From the IMG/VR virus record IMGVR_UViG_3300046787_000379, positions 1 to 41,701 of that record: a stretch of DNA of 41,701 nucleotides; one strand, written 5' to 3'. How positions within the stretch are numbered: the first letter of the stretch is position 1; each line of letters begins with the position of its first letter. The notes beneath the pieces were generated by a model that was not told the DNA's origin, made no database searches, and worked only from the letters and a program-made list of their open reading frames with translations. The DNA comes from a virus. This document shows positions 17,051-25,723 of this stretch, piece after piece. Made by a program: the position numbers and the translations under genes.

Positions 17051-17187
17051 CCGTACCAAATGTAATAATAGAAGTGTTGGCAAGGTTACATCTGTGGTTG
17101 CCAAACCCATACGCTACGGGTCGAATAGGGTTAAGAAATAACTCTAGAAAGCGTAAAAAATAGCGACTGCTGGAAAGAAAGCAAAAA
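17051..17187 (+). other. Non-coding stretch with strong potential RNA structure
   Basis: Between two tRNA elements. TTGGCAA (17077-17083) pairs with TTGCCAA (17098-17104); AACCC (17104-17108) with GGGTT (17128-17132); TACGCT (17110-17115) with AGCGTA (17150-17155). There is no open frame. It is probably part of a tRNA precursor or a separate small RNA; no known family is recognised. Confidence 0.4.
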
Positions 17188-17257
17188 GCGGGCTAATGTA
17201 ATGGTTAGCATAACAGACTTTGAAGCTGTTCGTATGGGTTCGAATCCCTTGCCCGCA
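17188..17257 (+). tRNA. tRNA-Gln (anticodon TTG)
   Basis: Acceptor GCGGGC pairs with GCCCGC (17251-17256). The D-arm has TAATGGTTAGCA, the anticodon arm ACAGA-CTTTGAA-GCTGT gives anticodon TTG with one mismatch at the loop base, and the T-arm contains GGGTTCGAATCCC. D-loop and anticodon loop match tRNA-Gln of Bacteroidota as I know them. CCA is not encoded. The seventh acceptor pair is T-T, so it is slightly short or degenerate. Confidence 0.8.
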
Positions 17258-17277
17258 ACTAAACAAATACAATCAAT

Positions 17278-17439
17278 ATGCCTAGAGTAAGCAAAAAAGA
17301 CGAAAAAATTGATTTAGCAATAAAGGATACCAAATTGCACCTAGATGACGCTAAGTTGCGGTTACAATTATTGCAACAAGAAATTAAGGTGTTGCAATCA
17401 AGGTTAGACACATTGGAAATCATTAAAAACAAAAAATAA
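17278..17439 (+). CDS. Small coiled-coil protein (53 aa)
   Basis: ATG 17278 gives MPRVSKKDEKIDLAIKDTKL followed by heptad-like Leu repeats (LRLQLLQQEIKVLQSRLD). It is almost entirely helical and probably forms a parallel coiled coil. The stop overlaps the next ATG (TAATG at 17437-17441), so it is coupled to the HAD-like gene. Function unknown. Confidence 0.65.
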   Translation: MPRVSKKDEKIDLAIKDTKLHLDDAKLRLQLLQQEIKVLQSRLDTLEIIKNKK

Positions 17440-17750
17440 TGCCAAAAGTAAGCCTAGACTACGACGGTGTTTTATCTACCCCAAAAGGGATTGAATTAGC
17501 CAAAAGGCTGATTTCAGAAGGTAAGGACATTTATATTGTGACAGCGCGTAATTCTGCATCTGATTGGAATAGCGGACTATTCAATAGAGCTAAAGAGCTA
17601 GGTATAAATCGTGACAAAATTTACTTTACGAATGGTGCTGATAAATGGAAAACGCTGGAGCGGTTAGGTATTATCACTCACTACGATAATAATCAGGAGC
17701 AATTAGACAAAATCAGCAAAAATACCAAAACAAGAGCAATCAAGTTTTAA
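17439..17750 (+). CDS. HAD-superfamily phosphatase-like protein
   Basis: A 103-residue small HAD protein. Motif I is SLDYDGVLST (Asp7 and Asp9 as nucleophile and acid), motif II IVTARN near residue 33-38, a Lys at about 62-70 (NGADKWK) fits motif III, and HYDNNQ near 79-84 is the acidic motif IV position. Such proteins remove phosphate from nucleotides or polynucleotide ends. It lies between tRNA-Gln and tRNA-Cys just before the modification module, so nucleotide processing or RNA end repair are both possible. Confidence 0.75.
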   Translation: MPKVSLDYDGVLSTPKGIELAKRLISEGKDIYIVTARNSASDWNSGLFNRAKELGINRDKIYFTNGADKWKTLERLGIITHYDNNQEQLDKISKNTKTRAIKF

Positions 17751-17755
17751 ACCAT

Positions 17756-17826
17756 GGTCGGTTGCTAGAGTGGTTATAGGCTAGTCTGCAAAACTAGAGA
17801 CAACGGTTCAAATCCGTTACCGACCT
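17756..17826 (+). tRNA. tRNA-Cys (anticodon GCA)
   Basis: Acceptor GGTCGGT (17756-17762) pairs with ACCGACC (17819-17825); D-arm TTGCTAGAGTGGTTATAGGC; anticodon arm CTAGT-CTGCAAA-ACTAG with anticodon GCA; T-arm AACGG-TTCAAAT-CCGTT. All stems are intact and CCA is not encoded. A Cys tRNA fits the unusually cysteine-rich virion proteins of this phage. Confidence 0.95.
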
Positions 17827-17847
17827 CAAACATTAATACAAAACGTG

Positions 17848-18423
17848 ATGAGTATAGAAATCAGAAAAATATCGGAAATCAAACCGAACCCACAGAATCC
17901 AAGACTAATCAAGGATGACAAATTCAAACGCCTAGTAAAATCGATTCAGGACTTCCCGGAAATGTTGGATTTGCGCCCAATTGTGGTCGATGAAAATATG
18001 GTGGTTTTGGGTGGCAATATGCGTTTAAAAGCGTGTACCGAAGCAGGAATTAAGAAAGTACCAGTTCTTATGGCGAAGGGTCTATCAGAGGAACAAAAGC
18101 AACAGTTTATTATCAAGGACAATGTATCATTTGGAGAATGGGATTGGGATATTCTAGGCAATGAATGGGAAGAAAAGTTATTAGCGGATTGTGGTTTAGA
18201 TGTATGGCAAACTAGTGAAGACCCTGATTATTCAATCCTAGAAGACGAAGACCTTTCTACCGAAATGGATAGTATGACTGGCGGGGTAAAGAAAGCAATT
18301 CAGATTGAGTTTGAAGCCGAACATTTTGAGGAGGCATCTGAATTGGTAAAACTATGGCGCTCACGTGGTTTATACATTGGTGGATTCTTGATGGAAAAAT
18401 TGAAAGAAGAAAAACTGAAATGA
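17848..18423 (+). CDS. ParB/Srx-like domain protein, first gene of the modification module
   Basis: A 191-residue protein from ATG 17848 (GTG 17845 is in frame). The ParB N-terminal fold is clear: ISEIKPNPQNPRLI near the start, LRPIVVDENMVVLGGNMRLKA (the GG-MRLKA box at about 54-61), and GIKKVPVLMA. The C-terminal half (WDWDILGNEW onward) is typical of phage ParB-like proteins beside terminase or DNA-modification genes. In such settings it may bind or nick DNA, not segregate it. Its stop overlaps the glycosyltransferase start (ATGA at 18420-18423). Confidence 0.85.
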   Translation: MSIEIRKISEIKPNPQNPRLIKDDKFKRLVKSIQDFPEMLDLRPIVVDENMVVLGGNMRLKACTEAGIKKVPVLMAKGLSEEQKQQFIIKDNVSFGEWDWDILGNEWEEKLLADCGLDVWQTSEDPDYSILEDEDLSTEMDSMTGGVKKAIQIEFEAEHFEEASELVKLWRSRGLYIGGFLMEKLKEEKLK

Positions 18424-19163
18424 TAGTTTGTATTCCAAGTAGAGGCCGACCAAAGACAAAAACCTATAAGTTATTTGAAGGTAATAACGTCGATGTGTAT
18501 CATTTCGTTGAGCCACAAGAGGTCGAATTGTATGAATCGAACGAAGTTCCCAATGTGATAAATATCGGGGCTACAAATCGCGGAATTTCATATGTGCGGA
18601 ATTTTATTTTGGACTTTGCAAAAGCAAAAGGAACTGAATGGATAATGATGTGCGATGATGACGTTACGCGTTTCGATATCTACAAAAACAAAAAGAATTA
18701 TAAACTTACATTTTCAGAGCTTCTACCATATATTCACAAAGCATTTAAACTGCCATTTGAGATGGTAGGCTTTAATTATAAACAGTACATTTGGGTTGCA
18801 GATTCAACTTATTCCGTAAACACTAGAACCGTAGAGCAGTGTGTGTTATTGAACGTAAAAAAGATTTGGTGGCGCTATCGCCCAGAATTTGACCTAAAAG
18901 AGGATAGAGATTTTGCACTTCAAACCATAAAAAATGGCAATGGCATATTCCGCTGGAATCGTATTGGTGTTCAAAGCCCTGATATTGGCACAAACGCAGG
19001 CGGTTTAAACGATGACTATGCACAAAAACGTGACCAAAAGTCAGCATTACGTATGGTTCAGGAATGGCATCCTTTTTGTGAGCTTAAAAAGAAAAAGGAT
19101 AGGTGGGATATTAAAATGAAATTGAAAGATTTAGCGATTCATCATAAAAAGCAAGTTGTATGA
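18420..19163 (+). CDS. GT-A glycosyltransferase-like protein (TET/JBP-associated type)
   Basis: A 247-residue protein from ATG 18420; a longer in-frame start at 18354 lies inside the ParB gene. It begins IVCIPSRGRP (2-11), has an early nucleotide-sugar-fold pattern, NRGISYVRNFILDFA, then MMCDDDV with Asp79-Asp80-Asp81 as the metal-binding DxD-type site. Later KEDRDF and the C-terminal FRWNRIG also fit a GT-A enzyme. Its place between ParB and a TET/JBP-like dioxygenase matches the TET/JBP-associated glycosyltransferases described by comparative genomics. The predicted job is to attach a sugar to a hydroxymethylated base in phage DNA. Stop and next start overlap (ATGA). Confidence 0.75.
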   Translation: MIVCIPSRGRPKTKTYKLFEGNNVDVYHFVEPQEVELYESNEVPNVINIGATNRGISYVRNFILDFAKAKGTEWIMMCDDDVTRFDIYKNKKNYKLTFSELLPYIHKAFKLPFEMVGFNYKQYIWVADSTYSVNTRTVEQCVLLNVKKIWWRYRPEFDLKEDRDFALQTIKNGNGIFRWNRIGVQSPDIGTNAGGLNDDYAQKRDQKSALRMVQEWHPFCELKKKKDRWDIKMKLKDLAIHHKKQVV

Positions 19164-19945
19164 AAAGGATTGATTTAGTGCAATTAGAGCATAATGTGCA
19201 GATTGGCGATGTATGCGGAGTGATTCAGCCAAACATAACCGAAGATTCGATTTTTTACTTCGATGGCACTCCAATCGGGTTTTATATTCGTGACATATCT
19301 GTTTATTCAGAACGCGCGTCAAAGTTGGCCCAATTAGCTAACCATGAACTGCGGTCTAATAATGTTCCAAAATCAACCATGAAGCGCTCATCAGGTTTTG
19401 GAGATGGAAATAAAGACAAGGAAGTTTTGCAGTATTCGACTATCCTTGGTAGTGTTCCACCTAAGCCACATATGCGTCGACCATACCCAACCATTTCATC
19501 AGTTCACCAGGTGAAGTCAGCACAAACGTTTATCAAGGCGATGTTGATGCTTTGTGCGGAAAGTGAACAGATAATTAAGCAACTAACACCCAATATTTAC
19601 GAAAAGCAATTGGAGATAATTAGCTCGAACGTAGATAAAAAATGGAGGTTCGGTAATTTATTCACATCTTCGATTTCAAACTATAACATATCAGCTCCAT
19701 TTCATCGTGACGCAGGTAATTTTGAAGGATGCGTGAATGTAATTATCGCTAAGAAGGAAAATGCAACTGGTGGCAACACAACAGTTCCGGATTATGGCGC
19801 AACAATGGATTCTTGTGACAACTCAATGTTAGTGTATCCAGCGTGGAGAAATGTGCATGGAGTAACGCCTATTATTCCTACATTTGAGGGAGGATATCGC
19901 AACAGCCTAGTGTTCTATCCATTGAAGGCATTTAAGGGCTTGTAG
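19160..19945 (+). CDS. TET/JBP-like 2-oxoglutarate/Fe(II) DNA base dioxygenase
   Basis: A 261-residue protein. The double-stranded beta-helix core shows HRD (His182, Asp184) in SAPFHRDAGNFEGCVNVI, then a GG-turn (ATGGNTTVPDYG), His233 in NVHGVTP and Arg247 in YRNSLVFY for 2-oxoglutarate binding. The upstream RRPYPTISSVH segment resembles the region before the core in phage TET/JBP proteins. The enzyme would oxidise a methyl group on a base (thymine or 5-methylcytosine) to hydroxymethyl. It starts on the stop of the glycosyltransferase, so the three genes are one translational unit. An alternative, protein or small-molecule hydroxylase, is less likely given the partners. Confidence 0.75.
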   Translation: MKRIDLVQLEHNVQIGDVCGVIQPNITEDSIFYFDGTPIGFYIRDISVYSERASKLAQLANHELRSNNVPKSTMKRSSGFGDGNKDKEVLQYSTILGSVPPKPHMRRPYPTISSVHQVKSAQTFIKAMLMLCAESEQIIKQLTPNIYEKQLEIISSNVDKKWRFGNLFTSSISNYNISAPFHRDAGNFEGCVNVIIAKKENATGGNTTVPDYGATMDSCDNSMLVYPAWRNVHGVTPIIPTFEGGYRNSLVFYPLKAFKGL

Positions 19946-20016
19946 TGGCAAAGAATGAGGCCAAAATCAATACATTTTATAGTGTCTAGTAACGATTGAT
20001 TAAATGTGAAATTATT

Positions 20017-20406
20017 GTGGAAAAGAAATACGCAAGAGGAAAACATCCAAATAGCCAAAAGGCATTAACACCAGTCAAAAAAGGCCAGGTATTGAATCCC
20101 TATGGGCAACCTCGAAAATACGTCTCTACACTAATAAAAGACGGCTACAAAAAGGCAGAGGTAAACGATACCATCCAAGCCTTGATTTCGATGAATATAA
20201 ACGAGGTGAAAGCGGTACTATCAAACCCTAATGCAACTGTGCTAGAAAAGACAGTATCGTCAGCTTTATTGAAGTCAATGACCAAGGGAGATTTGTCTTC
20301 TATTGAATCCTTGATTAACCGCGTTTATGGTAAACCAAAAGACCATGTCGAAACGAGTGGTAAGCAGGTCATCGAGATTGTAAGAAAGAATGCAGGTAGA
20401 GCTTAA
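20017..20406 (+). CDS. terS: Terminase small subunit-like protein
   Basis: About 129 residues from GTG 20017 (MEKKYARGKHPNSQKAL...); the frame has no early ATG and an in-frame TTG at 19996. The KKGQVLNPYGQPRKY stretch is like the 'KGQSGNPKGRP' DNA-recognition box of a phage domain family (DUF5681 in my memory), followed by a helical oligomerisation region and a C-terminal tail ending in QVIEIVRKNAG. It overlaps TerL by 17 bases. It would recognise the packaging start on phage DNA. Confidence 0.75.
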   Translation: MEKKYARGKHPNSQKALTPVKKGQVLNPYGQPRKYVSTLIKDGYKKAEVNDTIQALISMNINEVKAVLSNPNATVLEKTVSSALLKSMTKGDLSSIESLINRVYGKPKDHVETSGKQVIEIVRKNAGRA

Positions 20407-21661
20407 TCAACTTCATGAGGGTCAGCAATACATCATAGATAATCGAAAACGGTTTAATGTGGTGTGTTGCGGGCGTCGTTTTGGTAAGACAGCCATGGCG
20501 GTGGAATTGATTTTAGACGATGAGCTGGATAATGGCGCGCTAAAGGGCCACAAGATTGCATATCTAGCCCCATCATACAAAATGTTAGAGGAGGTGTGGC
20601 TTGAATTATTATTCCGTTGCCGTGACATCATCGAAAGCAAGAACGAATCGGCTAAGCGGATAGTTTTGATTACGGGTGGCGTAATAGATTTTTGGTCGAT
20701 GGATAATATTGACTCAATCCGTGGCCGTAAGTACAAGCGCGCTATCCTAGATGAAGCCTCAATCCTTAATAGTAAAAAGCTAAAAGATATTTGGGAGCAG
20801 TCCATTCGTCCGCTCCTAACTGACCTGAAAGGTGATGCTTACTTTCTCTCTACCCCCAAGGGAAAGAAGCATTATTTCAGGGAATTAGCTGAAAATCATA
20901 AGAAATACCCTAAGAGCTGGACATTCTTTCAGATGCCAACACTGGCAAATCCATTCATCGACCCCGAAGAAGTTGAAGAAGCGCGCCAAATGCTACCGCC
21001 AGTAGTATTCGCGCAAGAATACGGGGCCGAATTTACAGACAAGGTGTCAGATAATCTTTTCATCCAGACTTTCTCAATTGAAAAGCACGTATCGAAAGAC
21101 CCTATCGCCTACAATCCACAGTTACCAACCTATATTTCAGTCGATTTTAACGTATCGCCATTATGCTGTATTGTGGTACAGATGGACCTTCATTTCCGTT
21201 CTATCCATGTGGTAAACGAATACCGACAACTAGATTCGGATGTATATGAGCTATGCGAGTGGATAAAGAAAAATTACGATTCAAGAAGGATATTTATTAC
21301 TGGTGACGCTGCTGGATTTAACCGTTCGGCATATAGTCGCGCGCATCAGTCGGCATTCCAAATCATTCAGACTGAATTAAACCTAAACTGGTCGCAGGTA
21401 AAAACACCAAGAGGTAAACCATCAGGATACGTCAATAATAAACGCCTGCTAGGGAACGCTTTATTCGCTAAACACCCAAATCTATTACTAAGTAACTGCC
21501 CGTGGCTGGTGGAGGATTTGATGAACGTTGAGTGTGACGCAATGGGCCAAATGAATAAGAGCCGTGATTCAACTCAATCCCACTTATTAGATGCTTTGCT
21601 AGACTTCTTCTTTTCGTGTTGTCAGGGCGCAGTCAAGATGCCTGCTATGCGTGGGGCTTAG
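20390..21661 (+). CDS. terL: Terminase large subunit
   Basis: A 423-residue packaging motor. ATPase domain: Walker A GRRFGKT at 28-34, Walker B AILDEAS with Asp121 and Glu122, coupling motif STPKG at 154-158. Nuclease domain (RNase H fold): Asp252 in VDFNVSP, Asp306 in TGDAAG, and a terminal Asp in HLLDALLDFF. All key residues are present and the length is normal. It follows TerS and precedes tail genes, not the portal, which lies 9.4 kb downstream. Confidence 0.95.
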   Translation: MQVELNQLHEGQQYIIDNRKRFNVVCCGRRFGKTAMAVELILDDELDNGALKGHKIAYLAPSYKMLEEVWLELLFRCRDIIESKNESAKRIVLITGGVIDFWSMDNIDSIRGRKYKRAILDEASILNSKKLKDIWEQSIRPLLTDLKGDAYFLSTPKGKKHYFRELAENHKKYPKSWTFFQMPTLANPFIDPEEVEEARQMLPPVVFAQEYGAEFTDKVSDNLFIQTFSIEKHVSKDPIAYNPQLPTYISVDFNVSPLCCIVVQMDLHFRSIHVVNEYRQLDSDVYELCEWIKKNYDSRRIFITGDAAGFNRSAYSRAHQSAFQIIQTELNLNWSQVKTPRGKPSGYVNNKRLLGNALFAKHPNLLLSNCPWLVEDLMNVECDAMGQMNKSRDSTQSHLLDALLDFFFSCCQGAVKMPAMRGA

Positions 21662-22306: not shown

Positions 22307-22479
22307 ACGACAAGCGTGATGAAGACTTGCAGTTGTTTATTCGGAGAGCTACAAACGGAAGTGTAATTGAACGTGATAGATTGCTTGAATATAGCTGTTA
22401 CGGGTTTTATAATGAGTTAAATTTATTTGTGCTAGAAAACAACAAAGATGCAAAAGGAAATATTCGAAATACAGTTTGA
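21734..22479 (+). CDS. Tail assembly chaperone, -1 frameshift product (GT-like)
   Basis: Slippage at T-TTT-TTT (22177-22183) would move ribosomes from ...DLTMLSFF into FELCSTKNKQFDELCKQKF and read to 22479. The combined protein has about 248 residues. The extension holds FGGGIPINGEP and KRDEDLQLFIRRA and a short C terminus; it overlaps the tape measure start (22448) by 32 bases. Frameshifted chaperones before the tape measure are a well-known rule in long-tailed phages; the ratio of the two products is usually fixed. Confidence 0.7.
22177..22185 (+). promoter_or_regulatory. -1 ribosomal frameshift site (nine T)
   Basis: T9 followed by G; zero-frame codons AGT TTT TTT TTG. The heptamer T-TTT-TTT fits X-XXY-YYZ. 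The downstream frame opens at this point and closes at 22479. No strong downstream hairpin was obvious by eye. Confidence 0.7.
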
Positions 22480-25400
22480 CCCTACGAGCTTCAATAGTAA
22501 TATCGATAAGGCTCTCGCTTCATTATCTAGGCTAGAAACACAATCAGGTGAATCTGCACTAGCTGTTCGCACGCTTGCGGGGTCTGTCGGCGGTGTTTCT
22601 TTCTCACGCCCAGTTGGTGAAATTCTTCGCCTAAATACAGCGTTAAGCCAAGTGAATGTTAGCACCTTAAAGCTAGACAATTCTCAGGAAGGTTTAGCTC
22701 GTGCTACCCGTTTGACAGAAGTCGCTATGAGAAATTATGGAAAGACTACTCAGGATACTACGGATAAAATCCAAAAGCAAGATAAGGCTACACAGAGTGC
22801 CATAAAATCTACTTTTACATTTGGAGAGCGAATCAGGTTTGCATTTAATAATTTAGCTGGAGCGTTAGGGATTACTGCGGGTATTGCAGGAATTGTTTCA
22901 TTAGGTAGGGCAATCCTTAATACATCAGCAGAGTTTGAAAAATATCGTGCCGTTTTAACGAACACCTTAGGCAGTACAGCACTGGCAAATAACGCATTAG
23001 CCACAATCACGGACTTTGCATCAAAAACACCATTTTCAGTTGCTCAATTAACAGAATCGTTTGTGAAATTAGCGAATCAAGGCTTTGTTCCATCAATTAA
23101 CGAATTGCGCAAACTAGGCGATTTGGCATCATCTACGGGAAAGGACTTTGATATGCTAGCGGAGGCAATCCTAGACGCACAAACGGGGGAATTTGAACGC
23201 CTAAAAGAGTTTGGTATCAAAGGCAAAGTAGAAGGAGACAAGGTAACGTTTGCATTTAAGGGTGTCCGCACGGAAATAGATAATAATGCCGAATCGATTC
23301 GTAAATATATTGTTGGATTAGGCGATATGAAAGGCGTTCAAGGGGCGATGGAGGCTATCTCACAAACCTTAACTGGACAAGTGTCAAACCTAGGTGACGC
23401 ATGGGACCAAATGCTGGTCGCTCTTGGCAATAATACAAGGGGGATTTTTACCACATTGATTGAATATTCTGGAATCGTTCTAAATAAGATTACGGAAATT
23501 AATAATGAGATGAATGCGCTTAGTAAAGTTGACCCTAATGCTGGTGGCTTTATGTCTATGTTTAGCGCCTGGGATAGAGTGGCAGGAAGGTCTATTGTAA
23601 AAAACAGAAAAGCATTACAAGAAATTACATCTGATATTATAGCAAATGCTAAGACTCAGGATGATATTGAAAAGGGAAAAGATAGACTTCGTGTAGTTTA
23701 TGATGAAAAAAGGGCACAAACAGATAAGCTATATAAAGCAAAATCAAGTGCATCTTTAAATGAATTTAGAAGCAGAGACTACAAGGGGTTAAGACAAGCA
23801 TACAATGAGCAGATTTTAGCTTTGGATGCTCAAGCAAAACTTATTGCAGACAAGAATAAAAAGTCATCAGAAGGTATATCAAAAGCAAAACAAAAGGAGC
23901 TTGATGCCCTAATGAAACTAGAAGAAGCCTACTGGAAGAAACTTCGTGATATGCGTTCTTCTTTGGCGACTTATAAGTTCCAGACTAGCCCAAAATCTGC
24001 TGAATCTATTCAAGCAGAATATGCCCGTTTGCTAGAAATTGAGAAGACTGAGATTCAAAAGCAATTTAGCAAGCTAGGCAAATTGAAGGTATTAACTATG
24101 CAAGCGGAGGCAGTAAAGATGTCAAAAGCTAGAAGCCAAACCGATATAGATGAGTTCAACAAAGCACAAGCTGACGCTTTAAACGGAATCAATCGCGCAA
24201 TTGAAGACCAAGAGTTTTCTATTCGAGAAAAGAAGATTGCATTGATGAAAGAAGGTTTTGTAAAGGACAACGAGGCCACTCAGCTAGAATACGATAAGCA
24301 AATTAACGCTATCGAAAGAGCTGGAGAAGACAGACTAAAAGCAATTGAAGAACAACGCAAGAGCGGGCTTTTGACTGATTTTAAAGCAGGTCAAGAGCGT
24401 ATCAGAGTAGAGAAGGAAACGCAGGCAAATATTGAGTTAGTAGAGCAAGATAGCTACGAGAAGCGATTGAAAAACTTACAGAAGTTTTACGAGGATATGC
24501 TAGGTATAACCGACGCTGAAAGCGCTAAGCGTGTTGCTAAGGATGCGGAGGCTATCGCTCAAACTGTGTTAAAGGAATCAGAGCGTTACGCCAAAGGTGA
24601 AATCACTTATGAGGAATACGAGCGGTCTATTGCAAGAAAGCAGTCCAGCTTCCGAAAAACAGAACTCGACACACAGCTAACTAATCAAGAGCAGTCACTT
24701 ATGTTATTGCAGGAGAGCTTAAAAGTAGCTGACGATGCAACAAAAACGGCTATTGAGACTAAAATTGCTTTGGCTAAGGAGGGCATTGCTAAGACTCAAA
24801 CCGAAATCAATACGGCTAACAAAGAATTTACTAGCCCAATTGATAGCCTAATTGGTAAGGCGTTTGGTATTGACCCTAATGACCCCGAATCAACTAAGGA
24901 TATTGAGAAATTCAAAGGAGCAGTAACATCCGCTATCAGCGAAACTGCTAAGGCTGTAAATCAATCGTTGCAGGCTCAAATTGATGCAGATAACCGTGCA
25001 ATTGAATCTCAGAAAAGACGCGTTGATGAAGCATCACGGATAGCGTCAGAAGGAAACGCTGAATACCTTCAACAAGAGGAAGAACGTATGCGTGAGCTAG
25101 AAGCAAAACGAGATGAGGATGCTAGAAAGCAATTAGCTATTAATGCGGCATTGCAAGCGTCGCAGGTTTTGGTTTCTATTACTGGCGCTTTAGCTAGTTC
25201 AGGTGGAGAGCCTATCCAAGTTGCGACTAAGGTAGCTACCATTATCGCCGCTCTTGCGACTGGTTTTGCCTTGGTATCTAGTTTGCAATCGAAAACGCCT
25301 AGTTTCTTTGAGGGTACAGATTTTGTGCCACTAGGGAATAATAAAAAAGGACGTGATACTGTGCCTGCTTTCCTACATGAGGGTGAGGCGGTAATTCAAG

Positions 25401-25723
25401 CTGACAAAAATAAAGCGTATGCGCCTGCAATAAAAGCTATCCGCAGAGGGTTAATTGACCCTGAAATTCTGAACGGATTTGTAACGGGAAGTAAGATGAA
25501 TCATTTTGCGTTGGGCCAGGCTTTACAAACAAGCTCAAATCCTTCGTTTAAGGAGACGCATTTTATTGAAATGAACGAACGGTTAGCTGGCCTTGAACAA
25601 GTTATGCTAGGCACAACGAAAGCGGTAAAACAGATAGGTGTGAATGTTAATTTAGATTCAGATGGGTTTAGCCTTTCTATTCAAAAGCATTTAGACCGCA
25701 AATCTAAAATTTGGAACGCATAA
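22448..25723 (+). CDS. Tape measure protein
   Basis: A 1091-residue protein that sets tail length. Layout: N-terminal tail-binding part, a membrane-like segment at about 137-157 (LAGALGITAGIAGIVSLGRA), the usual tape measure core (LTNTLGSTALANNALATITDFASKTP, then SVAQLTESFVKLANQG), long charged coiled-coil helices (about 380-890), a second hydrophobic stretch (about 905-955), and a C terminus with FLHEGEAVI, typical of tape measure ends. It overlaps the chaperone extension at its start and the next gene by one base at its stop (TAATG). Confidence 0.93.
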   Translation: MQKEIFEIQFDPTSFNSNIDKALASLSRLETQSGESALAVRTLAGSVGGVSFSRPVGEILRLNTALSQVNVSTLKLDNSQEGLARATRLTEVAMRNYGKTTQDTTDKIQKQDKATQSAIKSTFTFGERIRFAFNNLAGALGITAGIAGIVSLGRAILNTSAEFEKYRAVLTNTLGSTALANNALATITDFASKTPFSVAQLTESFVKLANQGFVPSINELRKLGDLASSTGKDFDMLAEAILDAQTGEFERLKEFGIKGKVEGDKVTFAFKGVRTEIDNNAESIRKYIVGLGDMKGVQGAMEAISQTLTGQVSNLGDAWDQMLVALGNNTRGIFTTLIEYSGIVLNKITEINNEMNALSKVDPNAGGFMSMFSAWDRVAGRSIVKNRKALQEITSDIIANAKTQDDIEKGKDRLRVVYDEKRAQTDKLYKAKSSASLNEFRSRDYKGLRQAYNEQILALDAQAKLIADKNKKSSEGISKAKQKELDALMKLEEAYWKKLRDMRSSLATYKFQTSPKSAESIQAEYARLLEIEKTEIQKQFSKLGKLKVLTMQAEAVKMSKARSQTDIDEFNKAQADALNGINRAIEDQEFSIREKKIALMKEGFVKDNEATQLEYDKQINAIERAGEDRLKAIEEQRKSGLLTDFKAGQERIRVEKETQANIELVEQDSYEKRLKNLQKFYEDMLGITDAESAKRVAKDAEAIAQTVLKESERYAKGEITYEEYERSIARKQSSFRKTELDTQLTNQEQSLMLLQESLKVADDATKTAIETKIALAKEGIAKTQTEINTANKEFTSPIDSLIGKAFGIDPNDPESTKDIEKFKGAVTSAISETAKAVNQSLQAQIDADNRAIESQKRRVDEASRIASEGNAEYLQQEEERMRELEAKRDEDARKQLAINAALQASQVLVSITGALASSGGEPIQVATKVATIIAALATGFALVSSLQSKTPSFFEGTDFVPLGNNKKGRDTVPAFLHEGEAVIQADKNKAYAPAIKAIRRGLIDPEILNGFVTGSKMNHFALGQALQTSSNPSFKETHFIEMNERLAGLEQVMLGTTKAVKQIGVNVNLDSDGFSLSIQKHLDRKSKIWNA

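Follow-up and report, generated by a model that had tools for sequence, protein, structure and literature searches.

Associations of phage TET/JBP genes with genes for TAGT glycosyltransferases and ParB proteins were reportedly predicted by Iyer et al. in 2013, and this gene association and the general idea behind it are already known. Phages that encode a C5-methyltransferase, a TET enzyme and a glycosyltransferase together are said to have been described by Burke et al. in 2021. The glycosyltransferase that forms base J in kinetoplastids belongs to a family other than TAGT. Members of the TAGT family in T-even phages glycosylate 5hmC-derived bases, adding glucose (PMC13390438), and for this reason family membership does not by itself identify the modified base. 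In phages M6, ViI and phi W-14, 5-hydroxymethyluracil (5hmU) enters DNA via the nucleotide pool, and the kinase/transferase route acts on 5hmdU in DNA (PMC6449724). The genes for ParB, a Tet-like protein, aGPT-Pplase2 and a kinase in Rhodococcus phage Tonitrus have been described as a possible thymidine hypermodification system, and the authors named this actinophage kinase family 5-hmU DNA kinase (PMC11955845).

We analyzed a related module in the IMG/VR record IMGVR_UViG_3300046787_000379, the whole of which (41,701 bases; linear, and may be incomplete) is referred to here as the window. On the plus strand, genes for a ParB-fold protein of 191 aa (17848..18423), a TAGT glycosyltransferase of GT-A type (247 aa; 18420..19163) and a TET/JBP 2-oxoglutarate/Fe(II) dioxygenase (261 aa; 19160..19945) are joined by ATGA stop/start overlaps at 18420..18423 and 19160..19163. 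The sequence-only reading had described these three genes and both junctions at 17848-19945, and the ORFs lie exactly there. It had also placed the module beside the terminase genes, and directly downstream on the plus strand we find a small ORF in the terS position (19996..20406; 136 aa, with an unsettled start and a weak match to DUF5681 that stays under the cut-off), followed by terL, encoding the terminase large subunit (20390..21661; Terminase_6N, E 9.5e-10; PHROG terL, E 1.1e-41). The terS-position ORF occupies the same position and belongs to the same cluster in sister loci; terL is a conserved neighbor and not part of the DNA-modification chemistry. One small gene separates terL from a tape measure gene (22448-25723), and no portal or major capsid gene was recognized by PHROGs among the ORFs scanned in the window. 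Directly upstream of the module are genes for tRNA-Gln(TTG) (17187-17259) and tRNA-Cys(GCA) (17756-17827), with a small HAD-like/5'-nucleotidase-like ORF (17439-17750; below cut-off) between them. A promoter and terminator scan gave no excess over shuffled sequences.

To place the module in context, relatives were collected among viral contigs. Of the 499 close relatives of the window TET, 80 were retained, and a comparison set of 181 TET loci was pooled from the TET relatives and from scans with ADDT (the amino acid:DNA transferase family PF18724) and TAGT. A scan with the window TAGT alone found no relative, whereas a scan with the TAGT alignment found 225. Counting the window, 75 loci in this set have the order ParB-TAGT-TET, and the matched TET start has the sequence ATGA in 164 of 185 loci. 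The three genes probably form one DNA-modification operon.

The ParB fold claimed from sequence was borne out by a match to Pfam ParB_N (PF02195; E 1.1e-6, 29.1 bits, cut-off 26.3) and by a PHROG ParB-like match (E 1.2e-29), and the window protein shares a GGNMRLKA motif with the ParB proteins encoded beside other TETs. For the proposed GT-A-like enzyme, the match to the TAGT family (PF20691; E 1.1e-23, 84.7 bits, cut-off 27.5) and the invariance of Asp79-80-81, the DDD motif of GT-A DxD type, across 40 TAGT proteins agree with the earlier assignment. The TAGT model (pLDDT 81) matched TAGT-domain proteins in BFVD (E 1e-11) and, in a Foldseek search of the PDB, general GT-A/nucleotidyltransferase structures only; neither the TAGT profile searched against solved structures nor the single window sequence searched against the PDB gave a match. 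The predicted 2OG-Fe(II) enzyme matches Pfam Tet_JBP (PF12851; E 3e-12, 46.5 bits, cut-off 34.9), and its His182, Asp184 and His233, which form the HxD...H metal triad, and its 2OG-binding Arg247 are invariant in 60 TETs. The single TET sequence gave no match in the PDB, whereas the 25 best PDB matches of its model (pLDDT 94) were all TET-type structures (CcTET, TET2, CMD1 and NgTET1), with FTO and AlkB ranking below them, so that the fold groups with DNA-base TETs and not with protein- or metabolite-hydroxylases. Two PHROG labels, "queuine tRNA-ribosyltransferase" for the TET and "beta-glucosyl-HMC-alpha-glucosyltransferase" for the TAGT, were rejected as functions because they are inherited; the labels of PHROG 842 and PHROG 6059 have been carried into many RefSeq phage records, where they are misleading (the true families are Tet_JBP and TAGT). 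All three protein identities are supported, and so is the predicted product, a DNA base that is hydroxylated and glycosylated. That the three genes are instead a chance neighborhood of a plasmid-type ParB, a surface-glycan glycosyltransferase and a general hydroxylase is extremely improbable, since the order recurs, with overlapping starts, in 75 loci, the glycosyltransferase is of a TET-linked family and the dioxygenase has the TET fold, even though ParB and GT-A folds are common.

About 180 sister loci share the order ParB-[slot]-TET(-terS-terL) and differ in what the slot between ParB and TET contains. The slot holds TAGT in 77 loci, a divergent TAGT in 4, an FkbM methyltransferase in 27, and sets of GATase, ADDT and kinase genes with ParB upstream in about 33-34, in some of which the kinase escaped recognition by search; it is empty in 35, where ParB directly precedes TET. 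One slot protein of 306 aa (L067:922-1842) has no Pfam or PHROG match and reads like a probable GT-B enzyme. A class II glutamine amidotransferase (GATase_6; L079:1486-2079 and equivalents) precedes ADDT in nearly all ADDT-slot loci, which suggests that glutamine-derived ammonia enters the adduct. Upstream of ParB-TET in L055 (5933-7410) there is a PLOD-type glycosyltransferase together with a CmcI/Methyltransf_24-like methyltransferase; some "empty" loci thus have candidate tailoring genes outside the slot, and those of L055 were perhaps relocated from it. In 88 of the 108 loci with enough sequence, terL follows TET at a distance of no more than 1.5 kb.

Slot content changes repeatedly beside closely similar TETs. 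At least 34 changes are needed on the TET tree (FastTree, 180 rows), compared with a mean of 87 after shuffling; the slot is therefore partly inherited, yet often exchanged. The TETs of L020, with kinase and ADDT in the slot, and L015, with FkbM, are 96.5% identical, and those of L011 (empty slot) and L054 (TAGT) are 94.6% identical; the TET nearest to that of the window (L004, 85%) is itself paired with FkbM. Upstream of ParB, C5 and N6/N4 methyltransferases interchange between L033 and L037 on the one hand and L032 and L039 on the other, with TETs 99-100% identical, and this position is a second exchange site. The exchange of slots suggests an arms race over DNA disguise.

The sequence-only reading had left the base unnamed, and the comparative evidence favors thymine as the predicted target. 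The ADDT transferase and the kinase found in sister slots need 5-hydroxymethyluracil, and the window-clade kinases match the actinophage kinases in a profile comparison (HHalign 97%, E 5e-11). No thymidylate-synthase-type gene (PF00303) was found in 19 records, six cultured phages included, which makes the TET the most likely source of the hydroxymethyl group.

The main rival to thymine is cytosine: a host methyltransferase, or a phage one that escaped recognition, would produce 5mC, TET would oxidize it to 5hmC and TAGT would glycosylate the product. This pathway is known in other phages (PMC12730594), the T-even TAGT enzymes add glucose to a 5hmC-derived base, and in 11 sister loci a C5 methyltransferase lies just upstream of ParB-TET. 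No C5 methyltransferase (PF00145) is present in the 41.7-kb window record, which may be incomplete, and the family is missing from most sister records searched (29 of 36 in one set and 37 of 44 in another; 14 of the 80 carry it, a count limited by fragments). The TETs of L033 and L039 are identical, with an N6/N4 methyltransferase upstream in one locus and a C5 methyltransferase in the other, so that a C5 partner seems dispensable. The kinase and ADDT slots also speak for 5hmU and against 5hmC, and the TETs that are truly paired with C5 methyltransferases form a separate clade with a separate signature. We consider the cytosine explanation unlikely.

The separate clade was defined with a contrast set made up of relatives of the Melnitz TET, in which a C5 methyltransferase immediately precedes TET in each of the 59 loci with enough upstream sequence. 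Three positions after the HxD Asp, all 67 readable Melnitz-type TETs have Asp, whereas Asn stands there in the window clade (181 of 185 TETs of the pooled set; N187 in the window TET) and in all 18 actinophage TETs; a kinase is close by in 17 of these 18. Eight positions after the 2OG-binding Arg, the window-clade and actinophage groups both have Leu (L255 in the window TET), and the TET2 alignment has His. We take these two positions to contact the base in TET2 and NgTET1, and they are putative base-reading positions here. In a careful TET tree, a branch with 100/99 support groups the window clade with the actinophage TETs and separates both from the C5-linked TETs and those of Cr30, DLP6, S-CBWM1 and Nonlabens. 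By clade, Asn/Leu signature and ParB linkage, the window TET falls in the kinase/ADDT-coupled group. Signature and tree count once as evidence because both reflect one deep split, and the Asn/Leu signature may mark ancestry rather than substrate specificity. The TETs of Cr30, DLP6 and Nonlabens have the Asp without a C5 methyltransferase, and human TET2, a 5mC enzyme, also has Asn at the first position, so that the Asn after HxD was rejected as proof of thymine specificity.

Distribution of ParB follows the same division. All 18 actinophage-type loci encode ParB together with TET, and so do nearly all window-type loci with upstream sequence, compared with 2 of 71 C5-methyltransferase-linked loci, both weak matches; the ParB profile was built from thymine-type ParBs, and a very different ParB in the C5-linked group could escape it. 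PF02195 fails on most actinophage ParBs, and a first ParB alignment was kept out of the conclusions because two of its rows were GATases. The simplest account would be that the methyltransferase picks the site in cytosine systems and that ParB does so in thymine systems. Site choice is assigned to ParB because no methyltransferase is present to choose the site.

A dioxygenase acting on 6mA, N4-methylC or RNA/tRNA, with TAGT decorating the product, is considerably less probable again than action on 5mC. CcTET, one of the top structural matches, also has structures with 6mA DNA, an N6N4-ParB-TET order occurs in some loci, and the window has two tRNA genes shortly before the module. The interchangeable partners ADDT and kinase, however, belong to 5hmU-DNA chemistry, and of 31 sister loci 30 lack a tRNA gene close to the module and one has it downstream; a tRNA role suggested by the adjoining genes was rejected on this ground.

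Thymine is thus strongly favored as the TET substrate, as judged from gene content and sequence comparison, and to the full statement, in which ParB-guided conversion of T to 5hmU and then to glycosyl-5hmU yields a protective base-J-like mark, we assign a probability of roughly 0.7. The ParB-fold protein would bring TET to target sites, as site chooser in the role held by the C5 methyltransferase in cytosine-type phage TET systems. The TET/JBP enzyme would oxidize the thymine methyl in polymerized phage DNA to 5hmU, and TAGT would move a sugar from a nucleotide sugar onto the 5hmU hydroxyl, giving a glycosylated 5hmU of the chemical type of base J. For the nature of the sugar added by TAGT we rely on inference. 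The mark would shield phage DNA from host nucleases, and frequent exchange of tailoring genes would fit selection for changing adducts; protection from host restriction is plausible. A timing of modification near packaging would rest on synteny with terL, which supports linkage rather than timing. The proposed Bacteroidota host agrees with the primase, whose relatives (215 records) are nearly all from phages of Flavobacteriia (181 Flavobacterium, 12 Cellulophaga, 4 Nonlabens, 2 Tenacibaculum and 1 Maribacter), and the window is probably from an uncultured phage of this class; a scan of a genome collection returned four MAG contigs only, from which no host was named.

Related operons are present in cultured phages. 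Mycobacterium phage Acadian has the order ParB-TET-TAGT-PIG-L-kinase-terL, Gordonia phage CaiB has ParB-TET-ADDT-kinase-oxidoreductase-terminase, Cinna has ParB-TET-kinase-terminase, and Prochlorococcus phage MED4-184 has ParB-FkbM-TET-terS-terL. Acadian gp5 (NC_023701; L201:3022-3588), annotated as terminase small subunit, matches Ploopntkinase3 (PF18751) over its full length (E 3e-61) and is probably a 5hmU-type DNA kinase. The presence of TAGT and this predicted 5hmU-kinase relative in one operon of the Acadian type ties TAGT to thymine more directly than any other observation here.

If the prediction is true, base-J-like DNA would occur in abundant environmental phages and would arise from TET acting directly on thymine. 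The tailoring swaps beside near-unchanged TETs would amount to a natural experiment that tells which host nucleases each adduct defeats, and the partner gene with two residues would give a testable rule for telling thymine-acting from 5mC-acting phage TETs. A test is already within reach in cultured actinophages and Prochlorococcus phages that have this module. More tentatively, and with somewhat less than even confidence, the module may be a prokaryotic counterpart of base J in which a ParB-type factor takes the place of a methyltransferase in selecting thymines for the TET/JBP enzyme in finished DNA, and phages under restriction pressure swap the adduct as a cassette (a sugar, a methyl group, an amino acid or no adduct) that its position beside the terminase links to packaging.

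The slot exchange, the thymine-type ParB-TET clade and the base-J-like product, whose chemistry is predicted, are the new part. Neither the slot exchange nor the thymine signature was found to have been described before in a literature search that stopped short of the full text of the key papers, and part of this may already have been reported by Iyer 2013, Burke 2021, Lee 2018 and Lee 2022. The associations of Iyer 2013 involve the same three families in one operon, and the Pfam name TAGT is itself taken from the association with TET; the window differs in that its set lies before terS-terL, its slot is repeatedly exchanged and the evidence points to thymine. The actinophage operons of Acadian, CaiB, Tonitrus and Cinna resemble the window in that TAGT or ADDT/5hmU kinase genes accompany those for ParB and TET, usually ahead of the terminase, and in having the Asn/Leu signature and the same side of the TET tree. 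Their tailoring genes follow TET, whereas those of the window lie between ParB and TET, their TETs are 28-30% identical to that of the window, and Acadian has an extra PIG-L and kinase. In the C5-methyltransferase-TET-glycosyltransferase phages, TET oxidizes a methyl group in polymerized DNA before tailoring, as proposed here, but the C5 enzyme is directly upstream, the signature is Asp and ParB is almost absent, none of which applies to the window. Kinetoplastid base J, made by JBP1/2 and JGT, also arises by thymine hydroxylation and then glycosylation and is of the product class predicted here, but without ParB and with a function in transcription termination. Phages M6, ViI and phi W-14 tailor 5hmU via a kinase and a transferase, as the sister ADDT slots would, whereas the window dioxygenase would make 5hmU in the DNA itself, and the group added would be a sugar.
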